From: Candidatus Gastranaerophilales bacterium
Lineage (GTDB): Bacteria > Cyanobacteriota > Vampirovibrionia > Gastranaerophilales > Gastranaerophilaceae
Reading direction: 5' to 3'
NCBI GenBank assembly: GCA_944322725.1
Contig: CALUPU010000002.1
Coordinates: forward strand, 124,001 to 188,000
Length of the DNA stretch: 64,000 nt
This document shows positions 6,699 to 63,692 of this stretch, piece after piece (within the stretch, counting starts at the first letter, position 1; each line of letters opens with the position of its first letter). Below the pieces are notes generated by a model. That model had not been told where the DNA came from. It did not search any database and was given only the letters and a program-made list of their open reading frames with translations. The position numbers and the translations under genes are program-made.

Positions 6699-6719
6699 AA
6701 ATTAATTCTTATTAAGTTT
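6699..6719 (-). promoter_or_regulatory. Conserved element upstream of flagellin 2
   Basis: On the minus strand this reads AAACTTAATAAGAATTAATTT, matching the flagellin 1 element at 5621-5640 at most positions. Further downstream both genes share GAACAGG. A TAATAT hexamer lies in between. Function inferred. Confidence 0.33.
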
Positions 6720-6840
6720 GAGATTTCTACAACTTAAGTATATAAAATATAAAAAATTGCACGCAAAAGTATACTATTGTATAGAACATACAACTTTTAA
6801 ACAGCTTGAAATAAGGTTTTTTACAACCTTTGGTGCAAAG

Positions 6841-7716
6841 TTAGCCAAGAGCATTAACAAGTTTGAGAGCCAGAACACCTTCCATCTGGTTTGCCTGTGT
6901 CAGCATAGAAGACGCTGTCTGCATTAGCAGCTGATTCTTTATAAAGTTCGAAGTTTCGGCTGCTATATCTGCATCCATAACCGTGCTGTAGGCACTGTTG
7001 AGGTTTTCATTCTGTGTCATAAGAGCATTGCTTATTGACTCAAGTCTTGACTGATAAATACCTGCCGTTGTAATTCTTTCGGTAATAAGATCTGCCGATG
7101 CCTGTGCTATATCAATAAATTCAGCGGCTGTACTTGCTGTTGCAAAAGCTGCAGATACCGTAGCGAATTTGCTTGTACCGCCGAAAAGATTAATTGACTC
7201 TGTGTCTGACTTCTCAAAAACTCCTTCTATACGAAGCGAATTAGTGGAAGGATCAGCATTTGCACCTATTTGAATTCTTACTCCTCCTGATTTTGTACCG
7301 TCAAGAAGGTTCAATTTATTGAATTTGGATTCTTTCGCTATTCTGTTAATCTCGTCAACCCTTTGCTGAACTTCGTTTGTAATAGCTGTTTTTTCCTCGG
7401 TTGTCAATGTTTCGTTTGCATACTGGGTTGCAAGGTCTTTGATTCTTTCAACCTGATCGTTTATTGAATCAAGGTCTCCTGATGCGGTTTGGAGCATATT
7501 GTTAGCAAGAGAAACATTTTGATAAGCGATTTTTGAACCTCTTATCTGAGAATCTAAACCTGCGGCATAATATGAACCCGCAGGGTCATCTTTTGCACTG
7601 TTGATTCTGCTTCCTGTAGACAATCTTTGAAGGCTTGTGTTCAAACTCCATGATGCACGTGTAAGTGCATTCTGCGCACGAATAGCCGGCATATTTGTGT
7701 TTATGACGATAGACAT
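6841..7716 (-). CDS. Flagellin 3 (divergent paralogue)
   Basis: 291 aa from ATG at 7716. Flagellin D0/D1 signatures are clear (MSIVINTNMPAIRAQNALTR, LQRLSTGSRINSAKDDPAG; C-terminal MDADIAAETSNFIKNQLL and SMLTQANQMEGVLALKLV), but it differs from flagellins 1 and 2 throughout and has a different upstream region. It may be a minor or positional filament subunit, as in bacteria with multi-flagellin filaments. An obvious rho-independent terminator is not visible in the 217 bp before flagellin 2, so read-through into the flagellin 2 promoter region is possible. Confidence 0.94.
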   Translation of the reverse strand: MSIVINTNMPAIRAQNALTRASWSLNTSLQRLSTGSRINSAKDDPAGSYYAAGLDSQIRGSKIAYQNVSLANNMLQTASGDLDSINDQVERIKDLATQYANETLTTEEKTAITNEVQQRVDEINRIAKESKFNKLNLLDGTKSGGVRIQIGANADPSTNSLRIEGVFEKSDTESINLFGGTSKFATVSAAFATASTAAEFIDIAQASADLITERITTAGIYQSRLESISNALMTQNENLNSAYSTVMDADIAAETSNFIKNQLLMQTASSMLTQANQMEGVLALKLVNALG

Positions 7717-43979: not shown

Positions 43980-44022
43980 TTGACAAATCCGTTTTTTTTC
44001 TATAGTGTTAGTCATGCCTAAC
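43980..44022 (+). promoter_or_regulatory. Promoter with GTTAG-N6-CTAAC operator before the 44048 gene
   Basis: TTGACA (43980-43985), TATAGT (44001-44006, 15-nt spacing; TAGTGT at 17-nt spacing is an alternative). GTTAG-TCATGC-CTAAC at 44007-44022 starts right after the -10, where RNA polymerase would initiate, as expected for repression. The same palindrome is found twice at the TolC promoter (48660-48675 and 48689-48704). Confidence 0.6.
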
Positions 44023-44047: not shown

Positions 44048-45091
44048 ATGAATCTTTCAGCTATTGGAAGGTGTATTGACCAGCCTGTTATATTAAACAA
44101 ACTGCAGAAAAAAATGCCTCTATTGCTAATCGGGGCAGGTGGCGGCTATGGAGTTTATGATACTTATAAATCAACAAAGCGAAAACCAAAAGCATATAGA
44201 AAACAAAAGGCGATTAAAAATACTATTATTATTTCAACAACAATTGCTGCATCTTTAATTGGGGCAAACGGTTTAAAAATAGCGGGTAAACAGATTGTTC
44301 CGAGACTTCTTGAAAAATCGTCTATGAAGGAAATTTTGCAAAATAATAAAAATGCGGTTGAACACTTTATGCAGGAAACAAAACCTGTAAAAAAGATTGA
44401 AAATATATTGAATAAAACAAAATCAGAAGCATTGTCGAGAAAAGAAGTTGAAACAGTTTTAAATGAAATACCGGAGACGGAATCAAAGAATAAACTGTTG
44501 TCCGTACTTCTTCCGCAGCCGGAAAATTTGGATGCCAAAGGTATTTTTTCTGAAATAGGCAGATTGTCTCTTCTCGGTGCGATACCTGTAGTCGGCGGTA
44601 TATTGGGCGGCATTATGGCAGATAAGGTGACGAAAACAGGTTCAAAAAAATCTACTGCTAACAAAATAAAAGAAGGCTTTTATCAATATTTTGCCAATAT
44701 CTTTCTTTGTAATGTCGGTGCATGCGCTGCGTTATTTGCGGCAGAAGGGCTTCAAAAATCAAAAATTATAAAACCATTGTCCCCTCTTAAAAAAATGTGC
44801 GTGATTCTTGCCGGAATCACAGCAACCGGCATTGTCGGCGGAAGTTACATTGCAAATAAAATGAGCCAGAAGATTATTGATCCGTTGTTTGAGGGGAAAA
44901 AAGGTAAAAAATCTTCTCTTAACCATAAAGGTGTTTACGATGAGCGCAGACCGGAACTTGCTGATATTGCTCTTCATGCCGATGATATTGCAACAGCCGG
45001 TGTTCTGTCAGGTTTTAAATGGATTGAACCGGCTTTGCCTTTAATGTATTTTGTTTCGGGTTACAGGGCAGGAATAGGTTATCGAAATTGA
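44048..45091 (+). CDS. Multi-pass membrane protein of unknown function, 347 aa
   Basis: ATG at 44048 with GAAAGGAAC upstream. About four to five hydrophobic segments (MPLLLIGAGGGYGVY near 25, TIIISTTIAASLIGANGLKI near 60, LLGAIPVVGGILGGIMADKV near 180, ILAGITATGIVGGSYIANKM near 265, plus one near the C-terminus at LPLMYFVSGYRAGIG). A charged cytoplasmic or periplasmic loop lies at 85-155. No family recognised. Expression is probably under the same regulator as the TolC-like gene (GTTAG-N6-CTAAC). Confidence 0.72.
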   Translation: MNLSAIGRCIDQPVILNKLQKKMPLLLIGAGGGYGVYDTYKSTKRKPKAYRKQKAIKNTIIISTTIAASLIGANGLKIAGKQIVPRLLEKSSMKEILQNNKNAVEHFMQETKPVKKIENILNKTKSEALSRKEVETVLNEIPETESKNKLLSVLLPQPENLDAKGIFSEIGRLSLLGAIPVVGGILGGIMADKVTKTGSKKSTANKIKEGFYQYFANIFLCNVGACAALFAAEGLQKSKIIKPLSPLKKMCVILAGITATGIVGGSYIANKMSQKIIDPLFEGKKGKKSSLNHKGVYDERRPELADIALHADDIATAGVLSGFKWIEPALPLMYFVSGYRAGIGYRN

Positions 45092-47048: not shown

Positions 47049-48537
47049 CTTTTTGTTCCTGTTCTGTTTTTAAACCTTTGTAGTTTAGCAAAAGAGTTCT
47101 TGGACTGATTATTCCGGTGTCAAAGAGCATTTGCGCCTGTGCCTTGTTATAAGCAATGATGGAACTTATCAATTGTTGTCGTGCCTGTGTTTTTTCGGTT
47201 TGAGATGTCAGTACGTCAATAAATGTGTTTTCTCCCACGTCAAAACCTATAAGGGAAAACTTTAGACCTTCGTCAGCAGCAAGAACCTGCTTTTTATTTG
47301 CTTCTATTCTTTCAAGGGCTGTTCTTGAACTGTAGTATGAGCCTACAATACTTTCTTTGACCTGTCTTTCAAGATTTGTCAGTTCATACCTTGCGGTTTT
47401 GATTTTTGCAAGATCTGCATTTTTTTGCGTTATAGTTCCTACACCCATTTTTTTCCCTAACGGTACTGTTACGTTAAGGCTCCAGGTATGGTTCGTCCTT
47501 AAACTCTGATTCCCAGTTACACCGACTTTTGCAAACTCATAAGTCAAATCTATGTACGGGAAAAAATCTGCATAGTTTTTGTTTTTTAAGTTCACTAGAG
47601 AGCGAATTTGCGCCCTTTTGGTTTTAATATCTTCTCTTGATTGCAGTGCAACATTATATAAACAATCAATGTTGTTTTTCTTGTCTATAAGTTCTCTTGC
47701 CTGTGCACCATGTTCAAAAGGATAAAGCGTTAATGTAACTTCAATACCCATAATATTTGCCAGCTTTGCCTGTTTCAGTCTTAAGGTGTTCAGTGCTGTT
47801 ATCAATTCCTGTTTTGCATCTGCATATTGTGCGTCTGCCCTTAAAATATCGTATTTTGAACCTATCCCTATTTGATAACGTGCCTGCATCAGTTTTAACT
47901 GTTCGTGTCTGTCTCTTAAATTTGAAAGCAGTACTTCAATGTTTAATTTAGACTCAAGCAGTTCATAGTAATAGAGCGTAGTATTTAAAAGAAGTTCACT
48001 TTGAGTGTATTTTACATTATGCTTTTGCGACTTATAAAGGTTGCTTCGGCTTGCCATATCATAGAAAACAGTACCGTTTCCGAGCGGATAATCTACCGTA
48101 ATACCGCTGTAAATAGGATTTTGTCTGATAACTCTAGGGAGAATATCCCCTACAAGAAATTCACCGTTAAGTGCCTGTATCCTGTATCTGTAATAAAAAT
48201 CCGGAAGCAAATCGGCTGCTGCTCTTGCATAAAGCCATTTTGCTTCCTGTGCATTTGTTTTTGCAATTTTTATATCATAGTTGTTTTTTAACGCAACGCA
48301 CAGACAGGTTTCCAAATCTACAGGAAGGAGATTAATGTCCAAACCTTCTTTTATCTGCCTGTCCAGATCTCTTTGTGTTGTTTCGTCGAATATTCCGTTT
48401 CCTTCTTTGAGGGATTCCAAAAATCTGTCAGAACGATAATTCCAGATAAGACCTTCTTCTTCTGACTCGCAAAAAACCGGCAAAGCAGGCATGGAGATGA
48501 AAAAACTGATAAGTAAAGATATTATGAATTTTTCCAT
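47032..48537 (-). CDS. TolC family outer-membrane efflux protein
   Basis: 501 aa, ATG at 48537 with GGGGAGA 4 nt upstream. Signal peptide at residues 1-23 (FIISLLISFFISMPALPVFC). Two long TolC-type repeats are visible, with the family hallmark LETCLCVALKNNYDIKIAKT near residue 80, TLYYYELLESKLNIEVLLSN, DILRADAQYADAKQELITAL and near the end IGFDVGENTFIDVLTSQTEK. TolC forms the trimeric channel that links inner-membrane pumps to the outside. No MFP or pump gene is adjacent, so the partner is elsewhere. Its promoter carries two GTTAG-N6-CTAAC operators. Confidence 0.9.
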   Translation of the reverse strand: MEKFIISLLISFFISMPALPVFCESEEEGLIWNYRSDRFLESLKEGNGIFDETTQRDLDRQIKEGLDINLLPVDLETCLCVALKNNYDIKIAKTNAQEAKWLYARAAADLLPDFYYRYRIQALNGEFLVGDILPRVIRQNPIYSGITVDYPLGNGTVFYDMASRSNLYKSQKHNVKYTQSELLLNTTLYYYELLESKLNIEVLLSNLRDRHEQLKLMQARYQIGIGSKYDILRADAQYADAKQELITALNTLRLKQAKLANIMGIEVTLTLYPFEHGAQARELIDKKNNIDCLYNVALQSREDIKTKRAQIRSLVNLKNKNYADFFPYIDLTYEFAKVGVTGNQSLRTNHTWSLNVTVPLGKKMGVGTITQKNADLAKIKTARYELTNLERQVKESIVGSYYSSRTALERIEANKKQVLAADEGLKFSLIGFDVGENTFIDVLTSQTEKTQARQQLISSIIAYNKAQAQMLFDTGIISPRTLLLNYKGLKTEQEQKAKQQY

Positions 48538-48601
48538 TATCTCCCCATTTTCAAGTGCTTCTACACATAAGAAAGCTTATTTGAAAATGACGGAAATTCT
48601 T

Positions 48602-48617
48602 ATAGCCGAACGGCTAT
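48602..48617. promoter_or_regulatory. Palindrome in the TolC leader
   Basis: ATAGCCGAACGGCTAT: a perfect 7-bp inverted repeat with a 2-nt centre, in the transcribed leader ~65-80 nt upstream of the TolC start. Could be a protein-binding site or a small hairpin. Confidence 0.4.
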
Positions 48618-48659
48618 TTTCAAGGATAAATCAGTTATCTTATCTGTACTTGACAAATT

Positions 48660-48710
48660 GTTAGTTATGCCTTACTCTTATATTATAAGTTAGTTTAATC
48701 TAACTTATAA
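48660..48710 (-). promoter_or_regulatory. TolC promoter with two GTTAG-N6-CTAAC operators
   Basis: Minus-strand promoter: -35 TTATAA (48705-48710), 17-nt spacer, -10 TATAAT (48682-48687). A 16-bp operator GTTAG-TTTAAT-CTAAC (48689-48704) fills the spacer exactly and is the core of a perfect 11-bp inverted repeat (48683-48710). A second copy, GTTAG-TTATGC-CTTAC (48660-48675), covers the expected transcription start. Geometry fits a repressor dimer that blocks both polymerase binding and initiation. The half-site resembles DtxR/IdeR-type boxes, but the identity of the regulator is inferred. Confidence 0.7.
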
Positions 48711-48758
48711 CGGATTAATTCTTCAAATTTTTAGACCAATACCATAATTCACTTTGGC

Positions 48759-48789
48759 GGCTGCTAGTCTTTCTCCTGCAGCCTTTTTT
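48759..48789 (+). terminator. Plus-strand terminator-like hairpin
   Basis: GGCTGC / GCAGCC (48759-48764 and 48778-48783) with 13-nt loop and six T. It is oriented for a plus-strand transcript, yet no plus-strand gene ends here. See the finding on a possible small RNA from 48650. Confidence 0.55.
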
Positions 48790-48800
48790 ATCGTGCGAAG

Positions 48801-49088
48801 TTACCAGATTACCCTGAAACCTTTAAAAAAGTTTTTTGGAGTTACTTTTTCTTGAACAGGTATAGTGTTTTGTTCTCTGTATTCTGTCTTTGTAAGCGGA
48901 TTCTGCTTGTGTTCAAGATTCATGATTTCGCTGTTTGTAAAGTGTGTTCGCTCAAGTGTCTCCATAGGCTGTGCTGCCTGTGTGGAAAATATTCTTGAAT
49001 TAATTTGGGCAGAAACATCCATCGCACCTTCTGCAAATGCGGTTGAGGAAATTGTTGATAGTAATAGGATAGTTATAATTTTTTTCAT
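48801..49088 (-). CDS. Small exported protein encoded downstream of TpsB, 95 aa
   Basis: Signal peptide MKKIITILLLSTISSTAFA, cleavage after AFA. Mature ~75 residues are hydrophilic (SAQINSRIFSTQAAQPMETL, ERTHFTNSEIMNLEHKQNPL, TKTEYREQNTIPVQEKVTPK) and end FRVIW. No cysteine. The start is 21 nt from the TpsB stop, so the two form an operon. It may be a TPS accessory factor, chaperone or regulator, but no family is recognised. Confidence 0.7.
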   Translation of the reverse strand: MKKIITILLLSTISSTAFAEGAMDVSAQINSRIFSTQAAQPMETLERTHFTNSEIMNLEHKQNPLTKTEYREQNTIPVQEKVTPKNFFKGFRVIW

Positions 49089-49109: not shown

Positions 49110-51194
49110 TTATAAGTTTTCTTTTTTTTGTTTTTTAGGTCTGGGATTTCTTCCGGCAACAATTCTTCCTATATCAGGAGCACATGTTATGTCAAAATGG
49201 AATCTTCCCATTTTCTGGTCAACATCATATTTGTTGTTAAGCCCGAATCCCCAGTAAAAACGCGCGGCAAGGTCGCGTTTTAGATTTACTCTTAAACCCA
49301 GACCCCAACTCATAAGAAAATCACCGCTGTCAACAGCCTGACCGTCTTTGTATGGGAAAACCATACCGTTGTCCATAAACACAGCACCTTTTATCATTTC
49401 TCTCGGGTAAATATAACCCAGCCTGTCTGAACCGATAGCTTTTGGCAGAAACGGAAGAGGTGTTATAATTTCAGCACTGGCAAGGTAGCCGCTTTTACCG
49501 AGAAGAAGACCTTCCGAGTATCCTCTTACTGTTGAAAGACCGCCGATTTGGAATTGTTCCATCCAGGGAAGTCTGTCTTGCGGAGAGTACTGACCAGAAA
49601 CTCTGAATTGACCTATTATTCCGTGTCCGAAGTCATGCAGCCTTGTGATATTTCCTTCATATTTGAAGAAATCTTCGTCGCCGCCCAGTGCTTCAAATCC
49701 GACAGAACCGTAATGACCCGTGTACCAGATACCGCGTTCAGTATCTTTTTTTGCATTGAAGCCCTGCGTAACGGAGAATGTGCCGAGACTTGGCAATTTT
49801 ACGCCTGATATGTCTGTAGTTGAGCGTTTAATGCTGCTTGCTGTGTAGGAACTGAGATTAAAACCCTGTTTGTCGATTAAAGGATGTGTTAAGTAAACGC
49901 TGTAAACCTGTGAAGTACCGCCGATACCGAATTGTCTTAACGGGCCGTTGACAACTGATATGTTACCTGCTGAAACTGAAGCACCGAGTCTGGTTCCGTA
50001 TTTATTAATCGGAAAATTGTAATCAGCAAAGCCCACTCTGTTGCCGCTTCCGAGGTATCCGCCCAGCGACATTCTGTCGCGGTGACCGAATAAACTGTCG
50101 GCAGAAAGCATACCTCCCCATCTTGTTGTACCGATGGTTTGGCGGCCCTGATTGTCGGTCATAAATGCTATATGAAACGGAAACGGGTCTTCGGCATTCA
50201 GTGTAATATCTGTCTGACCCTGCTCTTCACCGGCAGAAAGACCGACTTTTAATTTTATAGGATTGTTGTTGTTGAATTTTATTACATCTTGTTCCAGTTC
50301 GCTGATTTTTAAAAGGTCACCGGGTTTTGGCGCAACGCGGCTTTCGATGTATCCTGTTTTAGTCCAGCGGTTATTTTTTACGGTAACTTTGCCTACCGTA
50401 CCTTCAAACAAACCGATTTTTAAAACACCGTTTGTAATGTCCTGCGGAGGCAGATAGGCTTTTGATGTAGCATAATCACCGAGAATATAGCACCTTGTAA
50501 TGCTGTTGACTACCTTGTGGATATCTTCAATTGTAACCGGCTGTGAAAGCAGAGGAGAAGCGAGTTTTTGCAGTTCTTCTTCCGTAAATACACGGGATGC
50601 AGGAAATTCAACTTTTGTAATAGTTGCTCTTACAGCGTCAGAATCTCCGGGTTTTGAAAGATTGTCTTCTACAATAACAGGCGGTCTGCCTGATTTTTTG
50701 TCTTTAAATTCTGCATACAGATTCAGCTTTTTCTCTTTGTTTTCCTGAGGAAGAGGATTTAACTCTGCCTGCAGCTTTTTGCTTTCATAGAGTTTGTATT
50801 TTTGCTGTTCCGGTGTTGTTTCAAGATAATCAGGCGCCGGTTTTGGTGCGGCTGCCTGCACGTGTTTCTCAGGCTGAATAGGAGTCTGATTATTTCCGGT
50901 TGCTTTTTCTGGGGATGAGTCGGAATTGTTTGAATTTGTTGTATTGTACTGCACAGCGGGTACAGGCACGGGAACTGTTGATGCTGTTTTAATTACCTGT
51001 TGTTGAACTTTGGGTTCAGCTTTTTGTACCTGTTTCACGGGCTTATCAGCAACGGTCTGAGGTTTAGGAATGGAAGTTTTGGCAGGTAAAGGTACAGGTA
51101 CTGCATTTTTTGCATTTCCCGCTGCACTCTCCGCTGCTATGGTAAAATTTTGACTTAATAAACAAAGGCTTATTAAGAATACTAATTTTTTCAT
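49110..51194 (-). CDS. TpsB outer-membrane transporter (ShlB/FhaC family)
   Basis: 694 aa from ATG at 51194 (an in-frame TTG at 51206 is possible). Signal peptide at ~1-20 (LVFLISLCLLSQNFTIAAES), then a long periplasmic linker rich in K, P, Q and V (~25-170), a POTRA-type region with ASPLLSQPVTIEDIHKVVNS and RCYILGDYATSKAYLPPQDI, and a 16-strand barrel of ~370 aa. The VRGY motif of the conserved loop L6 is intact in IGGLSTVRGYSEGLL. TpsB proteins export a partner exoprotein that has an N-terminal TPS domain, here the divergent 51384 gene. The linker is much longer than in ShlB/FhaC. Confidence 0.9.
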   Translation of the reverse strand: MKKLVFLISLCLLSQNFTIAAESAAGNAKNAVPVPLPAKTSIPKPQTVADKPVKQVQKAEPKVQQQVIKTASTVPVPVPAVQYNTTNSNNSDSSPEKATGNNQTPIQPEKHVQAAAPKPAPDYLETTPEQQKYKLYESKKLQAELNPLPQENKEKKLNLYAEFKDKKSGRPPVIVEDNLSKPGDSDAVRATITKVEFPASRVFTEEELQKLASPLLSQPVTIEDIHKVVNSITRCYILGDYATSKAYLPPQDITNGVLKIGLFEGTVGKVTVKNNRWTKTGYIESRVAPKPGDLLKISELEQDVIKFNNNNPIKLKVGLSAGEEQGQTDITLNAEDPFPFHIAFMTDNQGRQTIGTTRWGGMLSADSLFGHRDRMSLGGYLGSGNRVGFADYNFPINKYGTRLGASVSAGNISVVNGPLRQFGIGGTSQVYSVYLTHPLIDKQGFNLSSYTASSIKRSTTDISGVKLPSLGTFSVTQGFNAKKDTERGIWYTGHYGSVGFEALGGDEDFFKYEGNITRLHDFGHGIIGQFRVSGQYSPQDRLPWMEQFQIGGLSTVRGYSEGLLLGKSGYLASAEIITPLPFLPKAIGSDRLGYIYPREMIKGAVFMDNGMVFPYKDGQAVDSGDFLMSWGLGLRVNLKRDLAARFYWGFGLNNKYDVDQKMGRFHFDITCAPDIGRIVAGRNPRPKKQKKENL

Positions 51195-51224
51195 CCTAAT
51201 CAACAATTCCTACAAGTACTTTAA

Positions 51225-51254: not shown

Positions 51255-51383
51255 CAAAAGTTAACAAAATTTGTTCTGTTAAGACGGTTATTTGAAGAAA
51301 ATCCTCCAAATTGTTTACTGCATATATTAATTAAGGTAGTATAATAGTAGAAAGTGATAGATTGGGGAGCAGTTTGGACAAGT

Positions 51384-54300
51384 ATGCAAAAGAATAAAAG
51401 AGGCAAAAAAGATATTGATTTTTTAAAGCTTTTTAAAAAATCACTTGCGTTGTCTTTGACCGTTGCCATATTTGGCATTCAGACATCTTATGCTACCAAT
51501 ATCACAGCAGGCGGCGGATATAATACCAATGTCGAAACCAACGGTAATACGACCAATATCACGGGCGGTCTTATAAACAACGGAACGGGATTCCATCACT
51601 TTACGGATTTTGATGTTTCAAGAGGGGATATAGCTAACCTTATTTTTGCGCAGGGGGCAGACAGATATGTAAACCTTGTTGATAAACAGGTAAGCATTTA
51701 CGGTATTTTTAATTCAATTAAAGGCGGAAATATCGGCGGTGATGTAATATTTGTTTCTCCTCTGGGGATGATTGTCGGAGCTTCCGGAGTAATGAATGTC
51801 GGAAGCCTGCAGACAATTACACCAGTACAGGGTACTTATAATTCTTTGCTTGACCTCGGTACAGGTATTTCCTATGAAAATAATATTCAAAATTTAAAAT
51901 CAGATATTAATAATGTTTCAATGACCAATATTCAGGGTAAAATTTTTGCGTCCGATTCCATTGATTTGTCTGATGGCAGAAATTTGATGATTGGCTCTAA
52001 TGCATCTCTTGTAACGGGGTTTAATGAAAACGGCTTTGCAAAAACCTCTGTAACAGGGTTCAATATGAATGATATTGTTAACTCTGACGGAATTGTTGCT
52101 GCCGAATATATGTCTGGCAGCGGCGGTGATATCAAGCTGGCTGCTGCTACAGTTAATGCAACAGGCGGTGTAATACAATCGCAGGGCAATGTCTCTTTTG
52201 ATGCTTATGACGGGGCAATAACTGTCGGCTCAAAAGTAGTATCCGACGGCAATGTCGACATAGGTGTAAATTCTTCTGCTACTACAAGAAAAATTACTAT
52301 AAATAATGATATAACAGCGCTCGGAGATGTAAATGTAACTACACAAAACAGAGATGTTGTTCAAAATACAGGCTCAAATATCAGTGCTTCAAAAGTTAAT
52401 ATTTCTTCGGGCAAACTCGGTATTGACGGTAATATTAAGGCGCAAGACGGTATTGATTTCAGAGCAACGGAATTTACTCAGGGCGATGATTCTTCTATTG
52501 TTAATAAAAACAGCGGAAATATTTCTATTTCTGCCACCTCTGATATTTCGTCAAATAAAATTACAAACGAAGCTGTAAACGGAAACATAAATATTGCAGG
52601 CAGTGAGATTCTCCTTAAAGACACAATAAAAACAAATTCGGGAAGTATAGAAGTTTCGGCTACATCAGATATTTCACAGAGTGATGACAGCTTTAATGGA
52701 TTTGATTCCGCAAAAAACCTGAATATTACTGCAGACTATAATGTAGGCTCTTCTTCTCAATCATTGAACCTTAACGTAGCAGGTAATGTTAATGTCTATG
52801 GTGCAGGTTCTGACGTTTATCTTGCAAGCAAAGATTCCGATTTAAGAATTGAAAATATTTCAAACGCTCAGAATGTTTCACTTGACAGTTCAAAAGCAAT
52901 AAATGTTTCTAACTCTATAGATGCAAATGATTCTGTCAATATAACTTCACAGGAAGGCTTTAATCAGTCGGAAAGTTCAACAATTAGCGTTCTTGGCGGA
53001 AATGGCGATGTATCAATAAAAAATAACGGTAGTGGCGATGTTAATATCAATAATGTTAATAACTACGGAAACGGCAATGTTGTAATAGAAAATACAAACA
53101 GCGGTTCTGCACCTACTCCGGGAAATGTTAATTTCAGCGGTAATGTATATACACAGGGAGAAGTTTCTGTTTCATCAGACGGTTCAATCTTACAGGCTAA
53201 TAACGGTGCTATTATTGATGCACAGGGGAATGTCAATTTATCCGCACAGGATAGTATCGGTACAAAAGAACAGACCGTTGTAATCTCTTCAGGAGGAAGC
53301 GTTATTGCTGATGCTGTTAACGGCGGTGTTAATCTGACAGGCGACAATACCGATATTGAACTCGTTAATATCAATGCAGGCACTGATTACAATATTACTG
53401 TTACCGGCAATAATGATATTATCTTTAATAAAGATTTGTCCAACGTCAACGGTGATTTGTCTTTTGCCGTTGATAACGACTTGAACATTGATTCAAGCAT
53501 TACTGCAAGCGGAGATGTTTCTCTTACGTCGAATAAAGGTGACGTTATATTAAACGCGCTTGTTTCTTCTACAGGAGAAAGCGTTGATTTGAACGCTCAA
53601 GGCGGTATTTATCAGGGTGACTCTTTTGATAATGTGGCAATTAATGCAAATAAAGATATAACACTAAATGCACAAACCGGAAATGTCGGTGCAGAAGGCA
53701 ACTCTTTGCAAATGACAGCAGGCGGAGTTGTTGATATAGAAGGCGGAAATATTTATATCCAGAGTCCCGGCAGCTTGAATATTGCAAATATTAACTCCTC
53801 CAAGGATGCACCTGATACTGTTGTAAATATTACAACCACCACGACTGATAACGGTAATATTAATTTTTCGGGTGCAATAAAAGGTTCTGATGTTAATGTA
53901 AATGCAGCGCAGGGAATCTCACAGTCAGTCGAAGGCAAGACTATTGACGCTTCCGGCAATCTCAGCTTAACTGCGCAAAACGGAAGCATAGGCGAAACGA
54001 ATCAAGCACTTAATTTTTCCGCGGAGGCTGTTTCTGCAAGCGCTTCAAAATCTGTTGTGCTGACAGGTATTGATACGGATATCAGAACTTCACAAATTCA
54101 GGCACAGGAAAATATTGATTTATCTACAAAAATTACATCAGAGGAATCTGAAAAAGGCAGTATAATTGTAGAAAATGATTTAATTGCGCAGGACGGTTAT
54201 ATCAAACTGGATTCTGCTAAAAATCTTGAAATTAATAATAATCTGTCAGCAGGTAATTCAATTACTCTTAATGCGACAGGCGGTATTACTCAGAGTTCCG

Positions 54301-57300
54301 ATGCTTCTATTACTAGCGGTACTTCTCAAAGTGCAGCGCAGGGCAGTGGAAATATTCTTATCTCAAACAACGGAACAGGAGACATTGTGCTCCATGATGT
54401 GACCTCTTCAAAAGGTGATATAAGCGTTGTTAATAATGCCGATGGGGCGGATATAATCTTAAATTCCGTGCTCCAATCTACTGATTCTGATATTATTTTA
54501 AATTCAGAAAATAATATAATTCAGACTTCAAAGGACTCTGCTTCATTGCTTGCTGCGGGAGATATTGTAGTAAATGCGATAAATGCAGGTTCACAAGCGG
54601 GTGAACTTCTTCTGAATGCGGGAGGCTCGCTTTATTCAACCTCTGACAATCTTTATGTAAGAGATACGGACGGGGATTTGACGCTTGGTGTTTTGAATAT
54701 TACAGATAACGCGAATATTACCGCGCAGGGAAATATTATACAGGATGATGCCTCAAGAGATTCAATTGTCTCTCAAAACGGTGTTATAAATCTTGTCAGC
54801 ACAGGCGGAGATATAGGCGCAGATAATGGTTTATCTTTAAATGTCGGAGGCAGGGTAAATGCTGATGCTTCAAATATTTACCTTAAAGGTACAAATGTAT
54901 CAACCGGACTTGTTAATGCGGATAATGCCGTAACTATTGATACAACGGCTTCAAACGGTACTGTTAATATTAAAGATAAAATAACTGCAGGAAGTGATAT
55001 TAATATTAATTCCGCAAAAGATGTTACACTGAATGCCGGTGATGCTCCTGTACTTAACTCTACGGGAGGAAATGTTATTATCACTGCGGTGAATGACATT
55101 TCTCAAACAGGAACTGCAGAATCTATTCTTGCGGCAGGCAATATTTCACTTACAAGCACAACAGGCTCTGTCGGTACTCAAGAACAATCAATGGTTGTAA
55201 AAACAACGGCAGGAAGTCTGGGTGCTAATGCGGCTGCGGGTTCTGTTTATTTAACCGGTATTGATACAAATATTTCTTCTTCTGATATTACTGCAGCAAA
55301 AGATATTGATTTAACCGTTACCGGAAGCGGAAATATTCTTATTGACGAAATTTTAAATACAAATGACGGGTATATTAAACTCACCACGGACAATGGAATA
55401 GATATCAACAACCTTATTTCTGCGTCAAAAGATGTCACTATTGATGCAAAGGGCGGTTCTGTCACACAGGCAGAAGGACTTGATAAAGCGATTTCTGCAG
55501 GCGGAAATCTTTCAATCAGTGCACATGGTGATATCGGTGGTGCAGAAAATCAGCACCTGTCTGTTACAGCAGGAGGCAAAGCTGATTTAACAGGTGATAA
55601 TGTTTATTTGAAAAGCCCTGAAAGTAATTTGACACTTGGTTCAGTAAACTCGTCCGGTGTGGTGGATATTAAGACAGAAACTTCCGGTAATATCAATCTT
55701 GACGGATTAGTTACAGGATCTCAAGTTTCTCTGAATGCTGCAGATGGAATTTATCAAAGTGCACAGGGCAAAACAATTGATACACAGGGTTCTCTTTCGC
55801 TTATTGCCAATAAAGAAAGCATAGGACAAAAAGGCAGTGCAATCAGCTTTTCAGCCGGTTCTGTTTCTGCGGATGCAGCAAAATCCGTAGTGCTGCTCGG
55901 TGAAAATACGGATATTAACACCCAATCGGTCAGAGCCACTGAAAATATTGACCTTACTACAACAGGTACCGGTAAAATTACTATTTCAAATGAGCTTTCT
56001 ACACGGAACGGATACATAAATCTTGATTCCGCACAGAATCTTGACATACAGCACAACTTGAGCGCAGGTGAGTATATTACTCTGAATGCAAACGGCGGTA
56101 TTGTCCAGCATGAAGGTGCTAAGATTGAGAGCGGTACTTCTTCTGCCGTAACAGACGGAAGTATTACCGTTACAAACTCCGGTACAGGCGGTATACAGCT
56201 TTCAGATGGTATTACATCACATAAAGGCAATATTACCGTTACAAATAATGCTTCCGGTGAAAATGCAAATATAGAAATAACCAGTGCAGTTGCATATGAC
56301 GGTACGGTAAATATTACAAATGGTTCTCAAAATAATGATATTATCCTGGGTTCGATTGTGTCAGACGGACAAAACGGTGAAGTAAACATTGATTCGGCAG
56401 GACAAATTCTTGGCAGTGGTAGCATTTTTTCTTCCGGTGATGTTAACCTCAATGCCCTATCAAATATAGGAGCAAGCAGCAGTTTGCTCGGCATTTCTGC
56501 ATCGGGTAATGTAAATGCAGCGGGTGATAATATTTATTTAGGCGGTGATTCCGGTGCATTTAATGTTGGTGACATAGCTGCAAACAATACTGTACGAATA
56601 GAAAATACCGGTACGGATATAAATATTAATGGCAGCATTCAAGGCAGTGATGTTATTTTGAAGGCTCAGAATAATATACTTCAAACATCGGCAGGTAAAA
56701 CAATTACCGCTGATAATCTTGAACTTTTTGCGGCAAACGGCAATATCGGAAGTATCGGACAGGCAATAGCTTTTGAAGCAGGAACTGTGAAAGCCGAAGC
56801 CGTTAACGGCTCTGTAATATTAAACGGAATAGATACAACAATAAATACAGGCTCAATAAAAGCAGGCTCCAATATAGACTTGAGCACTACAGGTTCGGGC
56901 GATATTAATGTAGACGAAGCAATAAATGCAAACGGATATATTGCGCTTAATGCCGCTGATAACCTTAATGTAAATCAAGGTATAACTTCAAGTGATACAA
57001 TCACTCTTACTGCAGCTGATAATGTACATGTTAACTCAACTGTACAGTCGCAAAATGATTTGTCCGTAAATACGCAGGGCGGAGATATTAGTTTAGGTGC
57101 ATTGCTTGAGTCAACAACAGGTTCGGTTGAACTTAATTCCGGCGGAAATATTTCACAAACTTTTGACGGAAAAGCGGTTCAGGCTGCAAACGGTATTACT
57201 ATTGATGCTGTAGGCGATATTGCTTCTGCGGGAAATGAACTTCAACTTAATACCTCAGGTGTTCTTAATGCAGATGCTTCTAATATCTATATAAAAAATA

Positions 57301-60300
57301 ATGAAGGCGGTTTGAATATCGGGCTTGTCGATGCAGAAAACAATATAAAACTTTCTGCTGCCGGTAATATAACCTCTGCTTCTTCTTCCTCTTCTGTAAA
57401 CGCCGGCGGAAATATTGATTTAAATGCGGCAGACGGCTATAATATCGGCACATCTTCATCCGACAGCTTAAAGGTTAATGCTGACGGTGTTGTTAATGCA
57501 AAAGCAGACAATATTTATCTTTCTTCGGATAATGATTTGAACACTGGAATTATTACTGCGGCTTCGGTTGCTGATATAAGAACAACAGGTACGGACAAAA
57601 ATATAAATATAACTGATTTGATTAAAGCTTCCGATGTATATCTGGAGGCATCGGGAAGTGTGCTTCAAAACAGTGTGCTTGCAAAAACTATCGAAACAAA
57701 CAACCTGACACTCATTGCTAATAACGGTAGTATAGGTGCAACAGGCAATGCAATTGATTTTTCCGCAACAGGACTTTTAAGAGCAGATGCGTCCGAAGCA
57801 GTTGTGTTAAACGGTGTAGGAAGAGATATTGATACTTCCTCTATCAATGCGGGCACAAGTATTGACCTTTCAACAGAAGGTTCGGGTAAAATCATAGTTT
57901 CCAGCAACTTAACAGCAAATAACGGATATATCAGTCTTAATGCTGCTGACGGACTGGATTTGAAAAATTACTATCTTACAGCATCTGATTATATCAATCT
58001 TGTTGCACAGTCAGGCGACATTCTGCTCAATTCAATGTTAAATGCAGGTACATATATAACAATTGATTCTGCGGGTGATATTTTACAGAGCGTAGATGCG
58101 GTTACTCTTACGGCAGGTACTGATATAACCCTTAAAGCAGGCGGTACTGTAGGTGAACTTAACAATGCTCTTCAATTGAAAGCGCAGGGCAATGTTAATG
58201 CGCAGGGTGCGGATATTTATTTGACAAGCCCTGAAACAGACATTAATCTGGGAAATATTAATGCATCGAATAATATTTCAATAAAAACAGAAACCAATAA
58301 CAGCAATATAAATATAAACGGAACAATTACAGGTAATAATATAACACTTGATGCCAATAATAATATCAGCCAAACATCACAGGAAAAAACAATAACTGCA
58401 TCAAATGACCTGAATCTTATATCGAGAAACGGAAATATCGGAACTACCGACAATGCAATAATATTTGAAGCGGGAACAATAACAGCAGAAGCACTCAACG
58501 GCTCTGTTGTGTTAAACGGAATAGACACAACAATCAATACCGGCTCAATAAAAGCAGGCTCCAATATAGACTTGAGTACTACAGGCTCCGGTGATATTAA
58601 TGTTGACAAAGAAATCAACGCAAACGGATACATCTCTCTTGACGCAGCAGATAATCTCAATGTTAATGAAAAAATAACTTCCAACAGTGAAATCACACTG
58701 GCAGCCTCTGATAAAGTGCTTCTCGGTGCGCTTGTAGAATCAACAAACGGCAATATAACAGTAAATGCAAATTCCGGAAGTATTGAGCAAAACTTTAGCG
58801 GTGTTGCTTTAAAATCCGGTAATGATATTACATTATCAGGTGCACAAATAGGTAGTGAATCACAGTATATTAATACTGATGCAGCAAATAAAGTTAACGC
58901 TGACGGTACGAATATTTATATAGAAAGCGACAGAGCAGTATTTAATATAGGTAATATAAATACCAATCCTGATATTGTGAATCAGACAGTCAACCTTCGT
59001 TCCAATACGGGTGATGTTAACTTTAAGAATACGGTTAACGGCAATATCGTTAATATTAATACGGCAAAAAATGTAACACAGGATGCTTCATTAAATAAAG
59101 CAATAGACGCAACTACTGTTAATTTTACTGCTCAGAACGGAAATATAGGTGCAGAAAATAATGCGATTGATATTAAAGCCTCTGACAGAGTGAATATTTC
59201 ACAGGCACAGAATGCTTATATAAACGGGGTCGAAGCAGACCTTAATACAGGTAATATCAATGTAGACTCAAATGCTAAAATTACTTCTGATAACGGCATA
59301 CATCTTGTTGATAAACTTACGGCACAGAATGTTAACTTAAGTGCACAGGGTGATATTACCCAGGACAGTGAACTTGCCAAATCAATTGAGGCACAGTCTC
59401 TTATTTTAAACAGTGCTTCCGGTGATATAGGTAAAACAGACAACGCAATAGCTTTCTCTGCAAATTCATTGTCTGCAAATGCACAGAACGGCTCTGTTGT
59501 ATTAAAGGGTATTGATACGGATATTTATACAAGTTCAATTGAAGCAGGAAAGAATATTGACCTTAGTACAACAGGTACCGCAGGCATAACAATTGATGAA
59601 GACACTTTATCTGCGAACGGTTATATCCGTCTGGATTCGGCACAGGGCTTGAACATAAATAAAAATGTAACTGCCTCCGATTATGTTGAACTTATTGCGA
59701 ATAACGGTAGTGTTCTTCTAAATTCCGTTATCAGCGGTACGGATGTGACAGTCAGTGCTGCTGACGGAATAACACAAACAGGCGGCGAACTTTTAAGTTC
59801 CGGTGTTAACGGCGTAACCGTTTCAAATTCTGCATCAGGCGGTATAACATTGACTGATGTAACGGCACAGAACGGTAATATTTCTGTTGCCAACAATGCT
59901 TCCGGTGATGCGGATGTTGTTTTAGGTACTTTAAGTGCCGGCGGTAATATTGATGTAGTAAACAACGCAAACGGTGAACTTATACTTAATGACACTCTTA
60001 CAGGTTCAGATATTTCCCTGACTTCTCAGAGGAATATTGTTCAGACAACAGATAAACTTGGTGTAAAAGCATCAAACAATCTTACTCTTTCTGCAGGTGA
60101 TTCTATCGGTACGCAGTCTCAATCATTGATTGTTAATGCGGGCAAAGATGTCAGCATTGAGGCTTCTGATATTTATCTTGAAAGCCCTGATTCCGACTTG
60201 AATATAGTAAGCATAAACGCAAACAGAGAGGATAAAACTCTTGGTGCTGTTGAGATTTCTACGAGCGGTTCAACAGGAGATATAACACTCGGGGATTCTA

Positions 60301-63300
60301 TAGTTGCGGATGAAATATCTCTATATTCAGCCGGTTCAGTAAGTGCAATGGATAACCTTTCTGCGAATACTGTTTCAATTACCGCAAATGACAATATATT
60401 AACTAACGGTAATGTTACGGCACAAGACGATATTAGCATAATAGGCGGCTCTATAACTCAAAATGCCAATACAATCATTTCTTCTCAGAACGGTGATATT
60501 TCATTAAGTGCGATGAATGGTGATATAGTTCTTAACGGTGATATCTCAAGCACAAACGGCAGAGTTTCTGTTTCTAATACTTCAACAGGGAATGCTTCTG
60601 TTACTGTTAATAACGTAAGTGCAGGCGACTTTTTCGCAATTTCTAATAATGCGGACGGACTCGTAACCGTAAACGGAACTTTGACCGGTGGCAATAATTC
60701 TCTTCTTAACGCACAAAACTCGGGTTCAGAGTCAGGTATAGTTGTTTCGGAAAATGCCGTAATTAACAGTAACGGTACATTTTCAATGTATAACGCGGGA
60801 GACAAAGGAATTCTTCTTGACGGTAAAATTAATAATGCTCAAACCGAAGGCTCTTCTGTTACTGTAGTAAATGATAAAGGCAGTATTCATATTAAAGCTG
60901 ATGTTGATAATGGGGAATCTAATTCATTTAATGTCCAAAACAATGGAACTGACGCAGACGGCAAAGGACTTGTTTTTGAAAACGGTATTATAAATAACTA
61001 CGGAACACTGGTATTAGAAAATAATGCAGGCTCTATGACACTTGACGGTGTTATTAATGCATATCTGGGTTCTGATAACAGCTTTGTAAACGGTTCTGAT
61101 TCGGATTTCCATATCAACGGTATATTTGAAAACAGAGGCAATACAGTAACATTTGAAAACAAGGGCGCAGGAAGCCTTATTGTTGACGAAGATGCTGTGC
61201 TTTCCGTATACAGTATACAGGACAGCGGCAATGTTTACACCGGAGTTTTGAACCTTCTTAATAATTCAACCACCACAAATGGCGGCGGTGTAACAATTAA
61301 CGGAACAATTAACAACGGCAGTAATATGATTTCCGGCGGTATATTGAATATAGTTAATGATACAAACGGCGGTGCAGGCGATTACGGTATTCTGATTTCA
61401 GATACAGGTGTTATAAATAACTATGCGGAATTGAATATAAATAACAATAATACAAACGGAAACGCATCAGGCGGAATTGTTATCAACGGAAATATTACGG
61501 GTGACAAAGGAACGATTTTGACTCCGTCTGCTGGTGCACCTATACCATCCAACAGTGTAAATATTTCAAATAACGCTCAATCTGCACAAAGCGGTATAGA
61601 ATTCGGTACAACATCAAATGTTGATGTCAAAGGCAATAAGCTGAATATCACAAATAACGGTCAGAAGGGTATTACCTTTAAAGAAGGTTCATCTGTCAGC
61701 AATACTGATACATTGACAGTCAACAACCTTGCAGGCTCTTTAAATATAGAAAATAATGCAACTGTTAAATCAGGCTCTGATTTGACCTTGATAAATTCTC
61801 AGGCAGGCAATTCCGTAAACATAGACGGTACTGTCCACGGTAAAAAGGTTACTGTTCAAAGTACCGGCTCTAATGTAAATATTGCCCATAACAATGAAGA
61901 AGGAAATATTATTTCAGACTCTGACGTTACGATTAATGTTACTGGCGGTGATATTTTAAATCATTCCGATTCGCAGACTGCTCTTGAAAATGCGCAGGGT
62001 ATAAAAGCAGCAGGCAATATTGAACTTAATGCTTCAAATATCGGCGAGACAGATTCTTCGTTGAGTGATATTGTGACCAACGGTTTTGACAACCTGAATC
62101 CTGACAATGCAATACATTTTACAGCTGGCGGAAAAGTTACTGCTAATGCAGAAAATAATTTGAATCTCCTTGCTATGAACGGAGATATGAATATAGACAC
62201 CGTCAAAGCAGGAAATGCTGTTTTGAGTGCTTTAAACGGCAACATAACAGCATCATCAATAGATACAACAGGTAATTTGTATATGTATGCTAAAGCAGAC
62301 AGCGCTGATATTATAGCAGACAGCGTGAAATCTGCTCTTCTTAGCGCTGAAGCCGGCAGAAATATTGATATAAATAGTCCTCAAAATCTTGATATAGAGT
62401 CAATGTTAAGCAGAAACGGCTCAATTAATCTGGATATAGACGGTGATTCTTATATCAGAGAGATTGCTGCTGCAAAAGATATTACAATTAATGCAGATGG
62501 TGAAAAACTGACTATAGTTAACCTTGGAAGAGTCGAACGTAATGACGGAATTATTCCTGAAACAGTCAACCTTACGGTAACTGATTCGCGTAACACATCC
62601 GGCAGCAAAAACAGTAAACTCGATATCTACAACGGCTATGTGAGAGATAAAGTAACCCTTAAGGCTGATACTATTACAGCACAGGCTTATGATATTTCTG
62701 ATTCTGCACAAAAAGGCGATATCAGAAAAGACAGCAAGTACGGTATAGATGCATCAGGATTCCATAATGCTAATACAAAAGGCGAATTGCTCGAATTTGA
62801 TATTCAGGGTGCAAACTATTCTCAAAAAGATGCCGGCTCAAATCCGAATAACCCGTATTACAAACCCGATGAGAATGATAAACACGCTTTAAATGTTCAT
62901 CTTACATTAGGTGATTCTGTGGGTGATGCACAGTACGGTGCAAACTTCAAGAAGCTTTATTCTGACTACGTGTTTATTGATTCTATAAATAAAGCAAATC
63001 CGGATGCTTTCTCTAAAATTGTTGTAGAAAGCGGCATTATAGGTGAATACGGCATATTCCGAAACAATAATCTTCGCCTTGATATAAATAACAATAATGC
63101 AACGGAATCCATAGTGGATGCTTATCCTATAAACAAACATTACGATGATAAAGCGGATAAAACAGTAAGTAACAATACATCATTCTATATGGAAATGGGT
63201 GACTCCATTAATATTGATGTGCCTTATAATCCCGATGTGCCTGTTGATCCGATAACAGGAAAAATTTATAACCCCCACAGAAATGTCGAAGATCCTGAAC

Positions 63301-63692
63301 TTACTGAAAAGACAAAAGCCGCTACTGCAAAAGATGCGGATAACTCTGCTGTAAAAGCTGATTCATCCACAGGAATCCGCCAGATTAACTGGGTAATCAG
63401 AGACAAGGATAACGAAATACTCGGTGCATCAGAACATGTTGAAAAACCTGTAATACAAACATTGCTAGGTATTTCTAAAAAAGGATTACTTGTTGTTGCT
63501 GATAAAAATTCGCCGGAACTTAAAAAAGGTGAAAAACTTCATATTGATATGAAATACAAAGATGTTGCATTTAATGTTGACGGTAAAGTAAAAGATATTA
63601 ACGGCAATGTTGTGGAAATATCTTTTGTAAATACAGATAAACTTACTTCAACGATTATGCTTTTCTTAAGTATGTATCAGGAAAATCTGTAG
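51384..63692 (+). CDS. Giant TpsA exoprotein (filamentous haemagglutinin/LktA-like adhesin) with PilZ-like C-terminus
   Basis: 4102 aa. ATG at 51384 (GGAC 5 nt upstream); a GTG ten codons earlier is possible. Signal: basic n-region (KNKRGKKDIDFLKLFKKSLA) and hydrophobic core, cleavage after SYA near residue 35. Residues ~38-150 form the TPS/haemagglutinin activation domain (GGYNTNVETNGNTTNITGGL, FHHFTDFDVSRGDIANLIFA, GGDVIFVSPLGMIVGASGVM), recognised by TpsB. Then ~3300 residues of short G/N/S/D-rich strands, the pattern of a right-handed beta-helix, with at least seven copies of a module that contains GSVVLNGIDT. No cysteine is apparent in this region. The final ~95 residues resemble a PilZ domain. 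Secreted adhesin or surface fibre is the likely role. Confidence 0.88.
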   Translation: MQKNKRGKKDIDFLKLFKKSLALSLTVAIFGIQTSYATNITAGGGYNTNVETNGNTTNITGGLINNGTGFHHFTDFDVSRGDIANLIFAQGADRYVNLVDKQVSIYGIFNSIKGGNIGGDVIFVSPLGMIVGASGVMNVGSLQTITPVQGTYNSLLDLGTGISYENNIQNLKSDINNVSMTNIQGKIFASDSIDLSDGRNLMIGSNASLVTGFNENGFAKTSVTGFNMNDIVNSDGIVAAEYMSGSGGDIKLAAATVNATGGVIQSQGNVSFDAYDGAITVGSKVVSDGNVDIGVNSSATTRKITINNDITALGDVNVTTQNRDVVQNTGSNISASKVNISSGKLGIDGNIKAQDGIDFRATEFTQGDDSSIVNKNSGNISISATSDISSNKITNEAVNGNINIAGSEILLKDTIKTNSGSIEVSATSDISQSDDSFNGFDSAKNLNITADYNVGSSSQSLNLNVAGNVNVYGAGSDVYLASKDSDLRIENISNAQNVSLDSSKAINVSNSIDANDSVNITSQEGFNQSESSTISVLGGNGDVSIKNNGSGDVNINNVNNYGNGNVVIENTNSGSAPTPGNVNFSGNVYTQGEVSVSSDGSILQANNGAIIDAQGNVNLSAQDSIGTKEQTVVISSGGSVIADAVNGGVNLTGDNTDIELVNINAGTDYNITVTGNNDIIFNKDLSNVNGDLSFAVDNDLNIDSSITASGDVSLTSNKGDVILNALVSSTGESVDLNAQGGIYQGDSFDNVAINANKDITLNAQTGNVGAEGNSLQMTAGGVVDIEGGNIYIQSPGSLNIANINSSKDAPDTVVNITTTTTDNGNINFSGAIKGSDVNVNAAQGISQSVEGKTIDASGNLSLTAQNGSIGETNQALNFSAEAVSASASKSVVLTGIDTDIRTSQIQAQENIDLSTKITSEESEKGSIIVENDLIAQDGYIKLDSAKNLEINNNLSAGNSITLNATGGITQSSDASITSGTSQSAAQGSGNILISNNGTGDIVLHDVTSSKGDISVVNNADGADIILNSVLQSTDSDIILNSENNIIQTSKDSASLLAAGDIVVNAINAGSQAGELLLNAGGSLYSTSDNLYVRDTDGDLTLGVLNITDNANITAQGNIIQDDASRDSIVSQNGVINLVSTGGDIGADNGLSLNVGGRVNADASNIYLKGTNVSTGLVNADNAVTIDTTASNGTVNIKDKITAGSDININSAKDVTLNAGDAPVLNSTGGNVIITAVNDISQTGTAESILAAGNISLTSTTGSVGTQEQSMVVKTTAGSLGANAAAGSVYLTGIDTNISSSDITAAKDIDLTVTGSGNILIDEILNTNDGYIKLTTDNGIDINNLISASKDVTIDAKGGSVTQAEGLDKAISAGGNLSISAHGDIGGAENQHLSVTAGGKADLTGDNVYLKSPESNLTLGSVNSSGVVDIKTETSGNINLDGLVTGSQVSLNAADGIYQSAQGKTIDTQGSLSLIANKESIGQKGSAISFSAGSVSADAAKSVVLLGENTDINTQSVRATENIDLTTTGTGKITISNELSTRNGYINLDSAQNLDIQHNLSAGEYITLNANGGIVQHEGAKIESGTSSAVTDGSITVTNSGTGGIQLSDGITSHKGNITVTNNASGENANIEITSAVAYDGTVNITNGSQNNDIILGSIVSDGQNGEVNIDSAGQILGSGSIFSSGDVNLNALSNIGASSSLLGISASGNVNAAGDNIYLGGDSGAFNVGDIAANNTVRIENTGTDININGSIQGSDVILKAQNNILQTSAGKTITADNLELFAANGNIGSIGQAIAFEAGTVKAEAVNGSVILNGIDTTINTGSIKAGSNIDLSTTGSGDINVDEAINANGYIALNAADNLNVNQGITSSDTITLTAADNVHVNSTVQSQNDLSVNTQGGDISLGALLESTTGSVELNSGGNISQTFDGKAVQAANGITIDAVGDIASAGNELQLNTSGVLNADASNIYIKNNEGGLNIGLVDAENNIKLSAAGNITSASSSSSVNAGGNIDLNAADGYNIGTSSSDSLKVNADGVVNAKADNIYLSSDNDLNTGIITAASVADIRTTGTDKNINITDLIKASDVYLEASGSVLQNSVLAKTIETNNLTLIANNGSIGATGNAIDFSATGLLRADASEAVVLNGVGRDIDTSSINAGTSIDLSTEGSGKIIVSSNLTANNGYISLNAADGLDLKNYYLTASDYINLVAQSGDILLNSMLNAGTYITIDSAGDILQSVDAVTLTAGTDITLKAGGTVGELNNALQLKAQGNVNAQGADIYLTSPETDINLGNINASNNISIKTETNNSNININGTITGNNITLDANNNISQTSQEKTITASNDLNLISRNGNIGTTDNAIIFEAGTITAEALNGSVVLNGIDTTINTGSIKAGSNIDLSTTGSGDINVDKEINANGYISLDAADNLNVNEKITSNSEITLAASDKVLLGALVESTNGNITVNANSGSIEQNFSGVALKSGNDITLSGAQIGSESQYINTDAANKVNADGTNIYIESDRAVFNIGNINTNPDIVNQTVNLRSNTGDVNFKNTVNGNIVNINTAKNVTQDASLNKAIDATTVNFTAQNGNIGAENNAIDIKASDRVNISQAQNAYINGVEADLNTGNINVDSNAKITSDNGIHLVDKLTAQNVNLSAQGDITQDSELAKSIEAQSLILNSASGDIGKTDNAIAFSANSLSANAQNGSVVLKGIDTDIYTSSIEAGKNIDLSTTGTAGITIDEDTLSANGYIRLDSAQGLNINKNVTASDYVELIANNGSVLLNSVISGTDVTVSAADGITQTGGELLSSGVNGVTVSNSASGGITLTDVTAQNGNISVANNASGDADVVLGTLSAGGNIDVVNNANGELILNDTLTGSDISLTSQRNIVQTTDKLGVKASNNLTLSAGDSIGTQSQSLIVNAGKDVSIEASDIYLESPDSDLNIVSINANREDKTLGAVEISTSGSTGDITLGDSIVADEISLYSAGSVSAMDNLSANTVSITANDNILTNGNVTAQDDISIIGGSITQNANTIISSQNGDISLSAMNGDIVLNGDISSTNGRVSVSNTSTGNASVTVNNVSAGDFFAISNNADGLVTVNGTLTGGNNSLLNAQNSGSESGIVVSENAVINSNGTFSMYNAGDKGILLDGKINNAQTEGSSVTVVNDKGSIHIKADVDNGESNSFNVQNNGTDADGKGLVFENGIINNYGTLVLENNAGSMTLDGVINAYLGSDNSFVNGSDSDFHINGIFENRGNTVTFENKGAGSLIVDEDAVLSVYSIQDSGNVYTGVLNLLNNSTTTNGGGVTINGTINNGSNMISGGILNIVNDTNGGAGDYGILISDTGVINNYAELNINNNNTNGNASGGIVINGNITGDKGTILTPSAGAPIPSNSVNISNNAQSAQSGIEFGTTSNVDVKGNKLNITNNGQKGITFKEGSSVSNTDTLTVNNLAGSLNIENNATVKSGSDLTLINSQAGNSVNIDGTVHGKKVTVQSTGSNVNIAHNNEEGNIISDSDVTINVTGGDILNHSDSQTALENAQGIKAAGNIELNASNIGETDSSLSDIVTNGFDNLNPDNAIHFTAGGKVTANAENNLNLLAMNGDMNIDTVKAGNAVLSALNGNITASSIDTTGNLYMYAKADSADIIADSVKSALLSAEAGRNIDINSPQNLDIESMLSRNGSINLDIDGDSYIREIAAAKDITINADGEKLTIVNLGRVERNDGIIPETVNLTVTDSRNTSGSKNSKLDIYNGYVRDKVTLKADTITAQAYDISDSAQKGDIRKDSKYGIDASGFHNANTKGELLEFDIQGANYSQKDAGSNPNNPYYKPDENDKHALNVHLTLGDSVGDAQYGANFKKLYSDYVFIDSINKANPDAFSKIVVESGIIGEYGIFRNNNLRLDINNNNATESIVDAYPINKHYDDKADKTVSNNTSFYMEMGDSINIDVPYNPDVPVDPITGKIYNPHRNVEDPELTEKTKAATAKDADNSAVKADSSTGIRQINWVIRDKDNEILGASEHVEKPVIQTLLGISKKGLLVVADKNSPELKKGEKLHIDMKYKDVAFNVDGKVKDINGNVVEISFVNTDKLTSTIMLFLSMYQENL
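54000..59640 (+). repeat. Repeated modules inside TpsA
   Basis: A module with the core (G/K)SVVL(N/T)GIDT(D/T)I followed by a helix-free strand run such as GSNIDLSTTGSGDI and an N-GYI-L-N/D-A-A-D/Q-L motif is found at about 54050, 55240, 55885, 56810, 57795, 58500 and 59490. Spacing varies (640-1190 bp), so units were rearranged after duplication. The copies at 56805-56941 and 58497-58633 are most alike, with identical runs such as GSIKAGSNIDLSTTGSGDIN. Confidence 0.75.

Follow-up and report, generated by a model that had tools for sequence, protein, structure and literature searches.

The gene at position 44048 of a stretch of Gastranaerophilales DNA encodes a membrane protein of 347 aa and is preceded by a palindrome of the form GTTAG-N6-CTAAC, of which further copies lie near a tolC gene. 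Here we ask which regulator is likely to act on this palindrome, which genes it would control, and what the membrane protein may contribute. The 64,000-nucleotide stretch of DNA that was analysed is referred to as the window, and genome-wide searches were made in the genome from which it derives (1.91 Mb, 95.6% complete) and in its relatives.

A conserved palindrome in the predicted promoter of the 44048 gene

The palindrome GTTAGTCATGCCTAAC occupies positions 44007-44022. Its 5-base arms are perfect, as an earlier note on this DNA had stated, and read as a 16-mer it is palindromic at 14 of 16 positions. A -35 hexamer (TTGACA) is located at 43980-43985 on the forward strand, where most of the aligned orthologue promoters carry TTGACA as well. 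The probable -10 is TAGTGT at 44003-44008 on the same strand, judging from a spacer of 17 nt and from the TA--GT pattern seen in the orthologue promoters. Given this spacer, the palindrome would overlap both the -10 and the start site of the 44048 gene; it had been described as starting right after the -10, a placement to be refined in that the putative TAGTGT shares two bases with it. A consensus promoter scan listed neither this promoter nor that of the small RNA described below, which counts against our reading. A further copy at 48660-48675 differs by two bases in 16, confirming the earlier count.

The exact GTTAG-N6-CTAAC sequence was found at two places in the genome, both within the window, versus one for the reversed control. 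With one mismatch allowed the genome contained 12 places versus 63 for the control. Three of the 12 were the window sites, and the nine others comprised six inside long ORFs (L092, L094-L097, L101), one within what reads as an apparent tRNA gene (L098), and two shortly upstream of a gene, namely a 123-aa ORF (L099; C10:47888-47903) and an MFS transporter (L100; C17:15496-15511). With two mismatches the window held 13 matches, fewer than the mean of 23.4 in shuffled sequences, so that the significance of the motif rests on its conservation and place and not on counting.

Conservation was evident upstream of the orthologues, where the earlier note had proposed to look for the motif. All 17 close orthologues (L003-L019; 54-100% identity) have a perfect palindrome 28-56 nt ahead of the matched start, despite variation in the N6 core and the spacers; at nine of these 17 loci a second site keeps at least 9 of the 10 arm bases. 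A wider scan covered 38 loci, 23 of them additional; as one (L326) begins at the match, 22 had upstream sequence, and all 22 have a perfect copy within 150 nt. Among 13 distant homologues (L020-L032), a perfect copy within 260 nt upstream was detected in only one (L027), a scarcity that counts against our reading, and L020 has a site in which 9 of 10 arm bases agree. In the 14 genomes that possess the small RNA, 27 of the 30 perfect copies genome-wide are situated at the promoter of either the 44048 gene or the small RNA; the other three are in genomes G005, G010 and G014. Together, these data support the palindrome as a putative conserved operator upstream of the 44048 gene.

Paired palindromes in front of a predicted small RNA

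The copy at 48660-48675 (GTTAGTTATGCCTTAC, operator A), identified by sequence and locus comparison, is located in the spacer of a promoter on the forward strand and reaches into its -10. Sequence and locus alignment place the -35 of this promoter (TTGACA) at 48650-48655 and, after a 17-nt spacer, its -10 at 48673-48678, which reads TACTCT here and TACAAT in several relatives. The second copy, GTTAGTTTAATCTAAC (operator B, 48689-48704), recognised by sequence and genome search, is perfect and lies at the start of the predicted transcript. Based on the alignment of 13 loci, folding and direct reading, this transcript would extend on the forward strand from 48685, an approximate start, to 48789; it is about 105 nt long and contains no ATG. 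A 22-nt stretch at 48731-48752 (forward strand; TTAGACCAATACCATAATTCAC) is identical in 13 of 13 aligned loci and is a candidate pairing region. The transcript would end in a terminator-like hairpin (48759-48789, forward strand) with a GGCTGC/GCAGCC stem, a 13-nt loop and a subsequent TTTTTT, as judged by sequence, alignment and folding. A consensus scan missed this hairpin, its loop being longer than the limit of the scan; such a hairpin was present in 28 of 28 small-RNA loci, in favour of our reading, whereas the search was run without a shuffled control, a point against it. The stretch folds better than shuffled sequences (z = -3.2; -2.9, -1.8 and -2.1 in three relatives), with operator B contributing part of the effect, and the best Rfam scores on 48500-48900 were far below the gathering thresholds. 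In its sequence features, the predicted transcript is a short non-coding RNA with a regulated promoter and a terminator of its own. It is best read as an iron-repressed small RNA, apparently an undescribed one.

This arrangement bears directly on the earlier proposal that the 44048 gene and the TolC channel are co-regulated through the palindrome, both serving export or envelope stress. The two operators are indeed located about 120-150 nt upstream of tolC, and much of the genus retains the order 44048-rpsA-tolC-small RNA. However, the conserved promoter (TTGACA-17-TACAAT/TACTCT) and the terminator-like hairpin are directed away from tolC, so that the copy had been misassigned to that gene. 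Moreover, the interval between the promoter and tolC contains a separate block, judged conserved by eye, and in another genus (g13) a different small-RNA body follows the same element beside other genes. We rejected co-regulation with TolC as the best reading and consider it very unlikely.

The 22-nt stretch occurs once, without mismatch, in each of 14 of the 23 genomes of the genus. It is absent from nine; the eight of these that were read, all but G002, have a variant box (see below). In a draw of 286 genomes of the order it was matched 11 times, ten times in the genus and once within a coding sequence of G282. The g13 body is marked by a 29-mer found in 12 of the 286 genomes, all of g13; the stems of its hairpin differ in their letters and retain pairing. 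In genus g44 (two genomes) and genus g51 (one genome) the element is followed by further RNA bodies. Loci of this kind, with a predicted short terminated transcript of another body behind the same promoter element, are L264 and L283 (genus g44) and L258 (G226). On the opposite strand beside the small RNA, four relatives (L122-L124, L131) encode a small membrane protein whose translation reads like the fluoride channel CrcB.

Targets of the small RNA were sought by G-U-tolerant complementarity to the 22-nt stretch. In its own genome 45 matches were obtained, one being the RNA gene itself, versus 60 for the control. Two of the 29 placed non-self loci lie just upstream of an ORF start, with no obvious iron link, and 15 matches fell outside the placed set; the two best matches were intergenic and unconvincing. 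The 13 relatives gave 45 matches (13 of them the RNA gene itself) versus 40 for the control. Long complementarity was thus at or below the control level, and no target emerged from the placed loci of the own genome or from the match counts in the own genome and the 13 relatives, which counts against our reading.

The promoter element across Gastranaerophilales

The element TTGACA-N4-GTTAG-N6-CTTAC-N2-T, with one mismatch allowed, was present in 143 of 286 genomes of the order versus 5 for the reversed control (counted from the table). In 68 fetched loci, of which 30 were chosen by the search tool and 38 by hand, 70 such promoters precede DtxR-family genes (31), small-RNA loci (15), DUF2023 genes (12), 44048 homologues (6) and others (6); the loci are not a random sample, which counts against our reading. 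Among the six others are two FeoA genes, two short Cys-containing ORFs and, after a weak match, a DMT-like permease. Since MarR-type sites also have such TTAG-N6-CTAA arms, the palindrome might be bound by another regulator, for instance of the MarR family, with the DtxR linkage being incidental. Against this, the related element immediately precedes the DtxR gene in 31 of the 70 promoters, as expected for autoregulation, and we regard the alternative as extremely improbable.

The palindrome resembles the iron box of DtxR and IdeR. A one-dimer IdeR box has been proposed as TTAGGNNNNCCTAA (excerpt of PMC8464063), with which the TTAG/CTAA arms and their spacing agree, while the inner GG/CC is matched in part (TTAGTNNNNCCTAA here). 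Eight genus members without the small RNA (L102-L109) have a regulator of another type, and upstream of its DtxR-family gene lies a variant box, GTTCGG-N4-CC(G/A/T)TAC. The left half GTTCGG occurs in all eight; the right half varies, with CCGTAC in four members, CCATAC in three and CCTTAC in the remaining one. The change of both halves in seven of the eight fits a dimer operator that would have drifted with its regulator. Elsewhere (L208 and L209, from position 1501; G046 and G041), a double-operator promoter precedes a conserved ORF of about 45 aa.

A DtxR-family protein as the candidate repressor

The genome contains one PF01325 match, a 145-aa protein encoded on contig C18, outside the window. 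Both DtxR domains exceed the Pfam cut-offs (PF01325, 58.7 bits, cut-off 26; PF02742, 53 bits, cut-off 27). Besides these two, Pfam lists weak HTH matches alone, and the protein ends at residue 145 with no C-terminal SH3-like domain. It is the only strong regulator candidate in this genome. No box was found in the promoter of its gene, which is on another contig than the window, and this counts against our reading. In relatives, a DtxR-family gene lies, by position, within 1 kb of the 44048 homologue (E <= 1e-40) in 21 of 42 genomes, and five distant homologues stand directly behind such a gene.

Among 27 aligned regulators, picked with Glu105 and His106 required and with position 102 limited to Cys or Glu, the residues Glu13, His79, Cys102, Glu105 and His106 are invariant and Asp10 is nearly so. 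The metal ligands described include Met10 and Cys102 for DtxR, and Asp or Asn together with Glu for MntR (excerpt of PMC10317159). The predicted ligands of the present regulator are a mix of the two sets. The C18 protein has Asp10 where IdeR has Met and thus lacks the Met10 of IdeR and of DtxR proper, a further point against our reading.

If the regulator were MntR-like, the metal would be manganese and the programme one of manganese uptake. The size and two-domain plan of the protein, its best matches among solved structures (MntR) and the Asp10 and Glu13 that it shares with MntR are all consistent with this. By contrast, Cys102 in 27 of 27 aligned regulators replaces the metal ligand Glu99 of MntR, and the C18 protein scores 77.9 bits against the NCBIfam MntR model, below the cut-off of 138. 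The associations, too, are of the iron type: in relatives, 44048 homologues or the box occur with genes for DUF2023, flavodoxin, FeoB, FeoA, ferritin, Fur-family proteins and rubrerythrin. In three Bacteroidetes, DUF2023 and flavodoxin belong to the genes that iron represses most strongly (excerpt of PMC10434189). We therefore judge manganese to be unlikely; from these sequence data, iron is the best inference for the metal.

Because the operator is conserved, the element precedes DtxR genes, the box resembles that of IdeR, the C18 protein passes the Pfam cut-offs and DUF2023 and flavodoxin are iron-repressed elsewhere, we consider it probable that a small repressor of the DtxR family, most likely responsive to iron, uses the palindrome as its operator and governs the 44048 gene and the small RNA. 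Export, envelope stress and metal homeostasis had all been suggested as roles of the membrane protein. Metal homeostasis is favoured by the DtxR-family regulator and by the iron-gene associations in relatives, and the part derived from TolC is not supported. At L033 (1501-3016; G046) a pyruvate formate-lyase-like gene is preceded by a perfect palindrome, a possible iron-sparing switch.

The 44048 membrane protein

The gene (44048-45091, forward strand) encodes a candidate iron-starvation protein, as characterised by profile searches, homologues and a structural model. The 347-aa product matched no Pfam family and gave no meaningful NCBIfam match. Its model (pLDDT 88.8, pTM 0.85) is almost entirely helical. 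Foldseek against the PDB returned nothing at E <= 0.001 (best E 0.76), and a profile search of PDB sequences returned nothing below E 0.28. VIA gave a best Z of 6.3, which is in the range stated as common for helical models, with rhodopsins, receptors and others as rows. For this model, the missing fold match is no evidence of a new fold. The polar residues conserved in the family (34 sequences) include E169, E209, Q213, N217, C221, N222, N270, E303, D306, H310, D312, D313 and E327, and some of them are possible metal ligands.

No FeoB was detected in the own genome (95.6% complete), which makes an iron-uptake role of the 44048 protein plausible. In 59 relatives, FeoB (E <= 1.8e-45; open frames of 594 aa or more) was found in 28, namely in 18 of the 42 with a 44048 homologue (E <= 1e-40) versus 10 of the 17 without one, and hence with no clear link between the two. 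These counts do not support the 44048 protein as a strict substitute for FeoB. The same regulator can have FeoB or FeoA under its control or as its neighbour. The 44048 protein differs from FeoB in having no FeoB domain, no Pfam match and another predicted fold.

Proposed model and related systems

We propose that in the presence of iron the metal-loaded repressor dimer would cover the -10 and the start site of the 44048 gene and block it. At the small-RNA gene (48650-48789) the dimer would cover the spacer, the -10 and the start region, with the same outcome. A fall in iron would release both genes, upon which the membrane protein may assist in iron acquisition or handling, while the small RNA may lower the translation of dispensable iron proteins.

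In this proposed logic of a metal-repressed promoter, a short RNA, an intrinsic terminator and an invariant unpaired stretch, the system is akin to RyhB, FsrA, IsaR1 and IsrR, which are Fur-controlled iron-starvation small RNAs, whereas the small RNA described here has a DtxR-family box. With the IdeR/DtxR regulons and mycobacterial MrsI it would share a DtxR-family regulator, a TTAG..CTAA box over the promoter and a box-bearing small RNA of about 100 nt (excerpts of PMC8628891 and PMC8464063). It differs from them in that the regulator is short, lacks the SH3-like domain and combines Asp10 with Cys102, that the boxes are 16 bp and single-dimer-like, that the RNA body is unrelated to any Rfam family, and that the organism belongs to a different bacterial phylum. 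A DtxR-box small RNA is a known kind, MrsI being the IdeR-box small RNA of mycobacteria (excerpt of PMC8628891), and the Gastranaerophilales case adds new parts. The regulon was not described among the matches listed for Gastranaerophilales with small RNA or iron, for Melainabacteria with DtxR, or for DtxR with sRNA, iron-responsive and FeoB.

More tentatively, Gastranaerophilales may possess a modular iron-starvation programme in which one DtxR-type element is reused with differing small-RNA bodies across genera, together with a membrane iron transporter of a new class (the 44048 family) able to serve in genomes that lack FeoB; this broader scheme is possible rather than probable. The proposed regulon itself would show, at the level of a whole regulon, how metals are controlled in the non-photosynthetic relatives of cyanobacteria that live in the gut. 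It would also extend DtxR-controlled small RNAs beyond Actinobacteria and give a central part in iron starvation to a family of membrane proteins that has no recognised fold and whose role there is directly testable. The reassignment of the 48660 copy also corrects a misleading link to TolC.

Other features of the window

An outer-membrane protein of the two-partner-secretion type (ShlB, POTRA_2) is encoded at 49110-51206 on the reverse strand. Beside it, at 51354-63692 on the forward strand, is an ORF of 4112 aa, possibly its giant exported partner. By reading of the translations, three flagellin-like genes lie in a row at 4607-7716 on the reverse strand.
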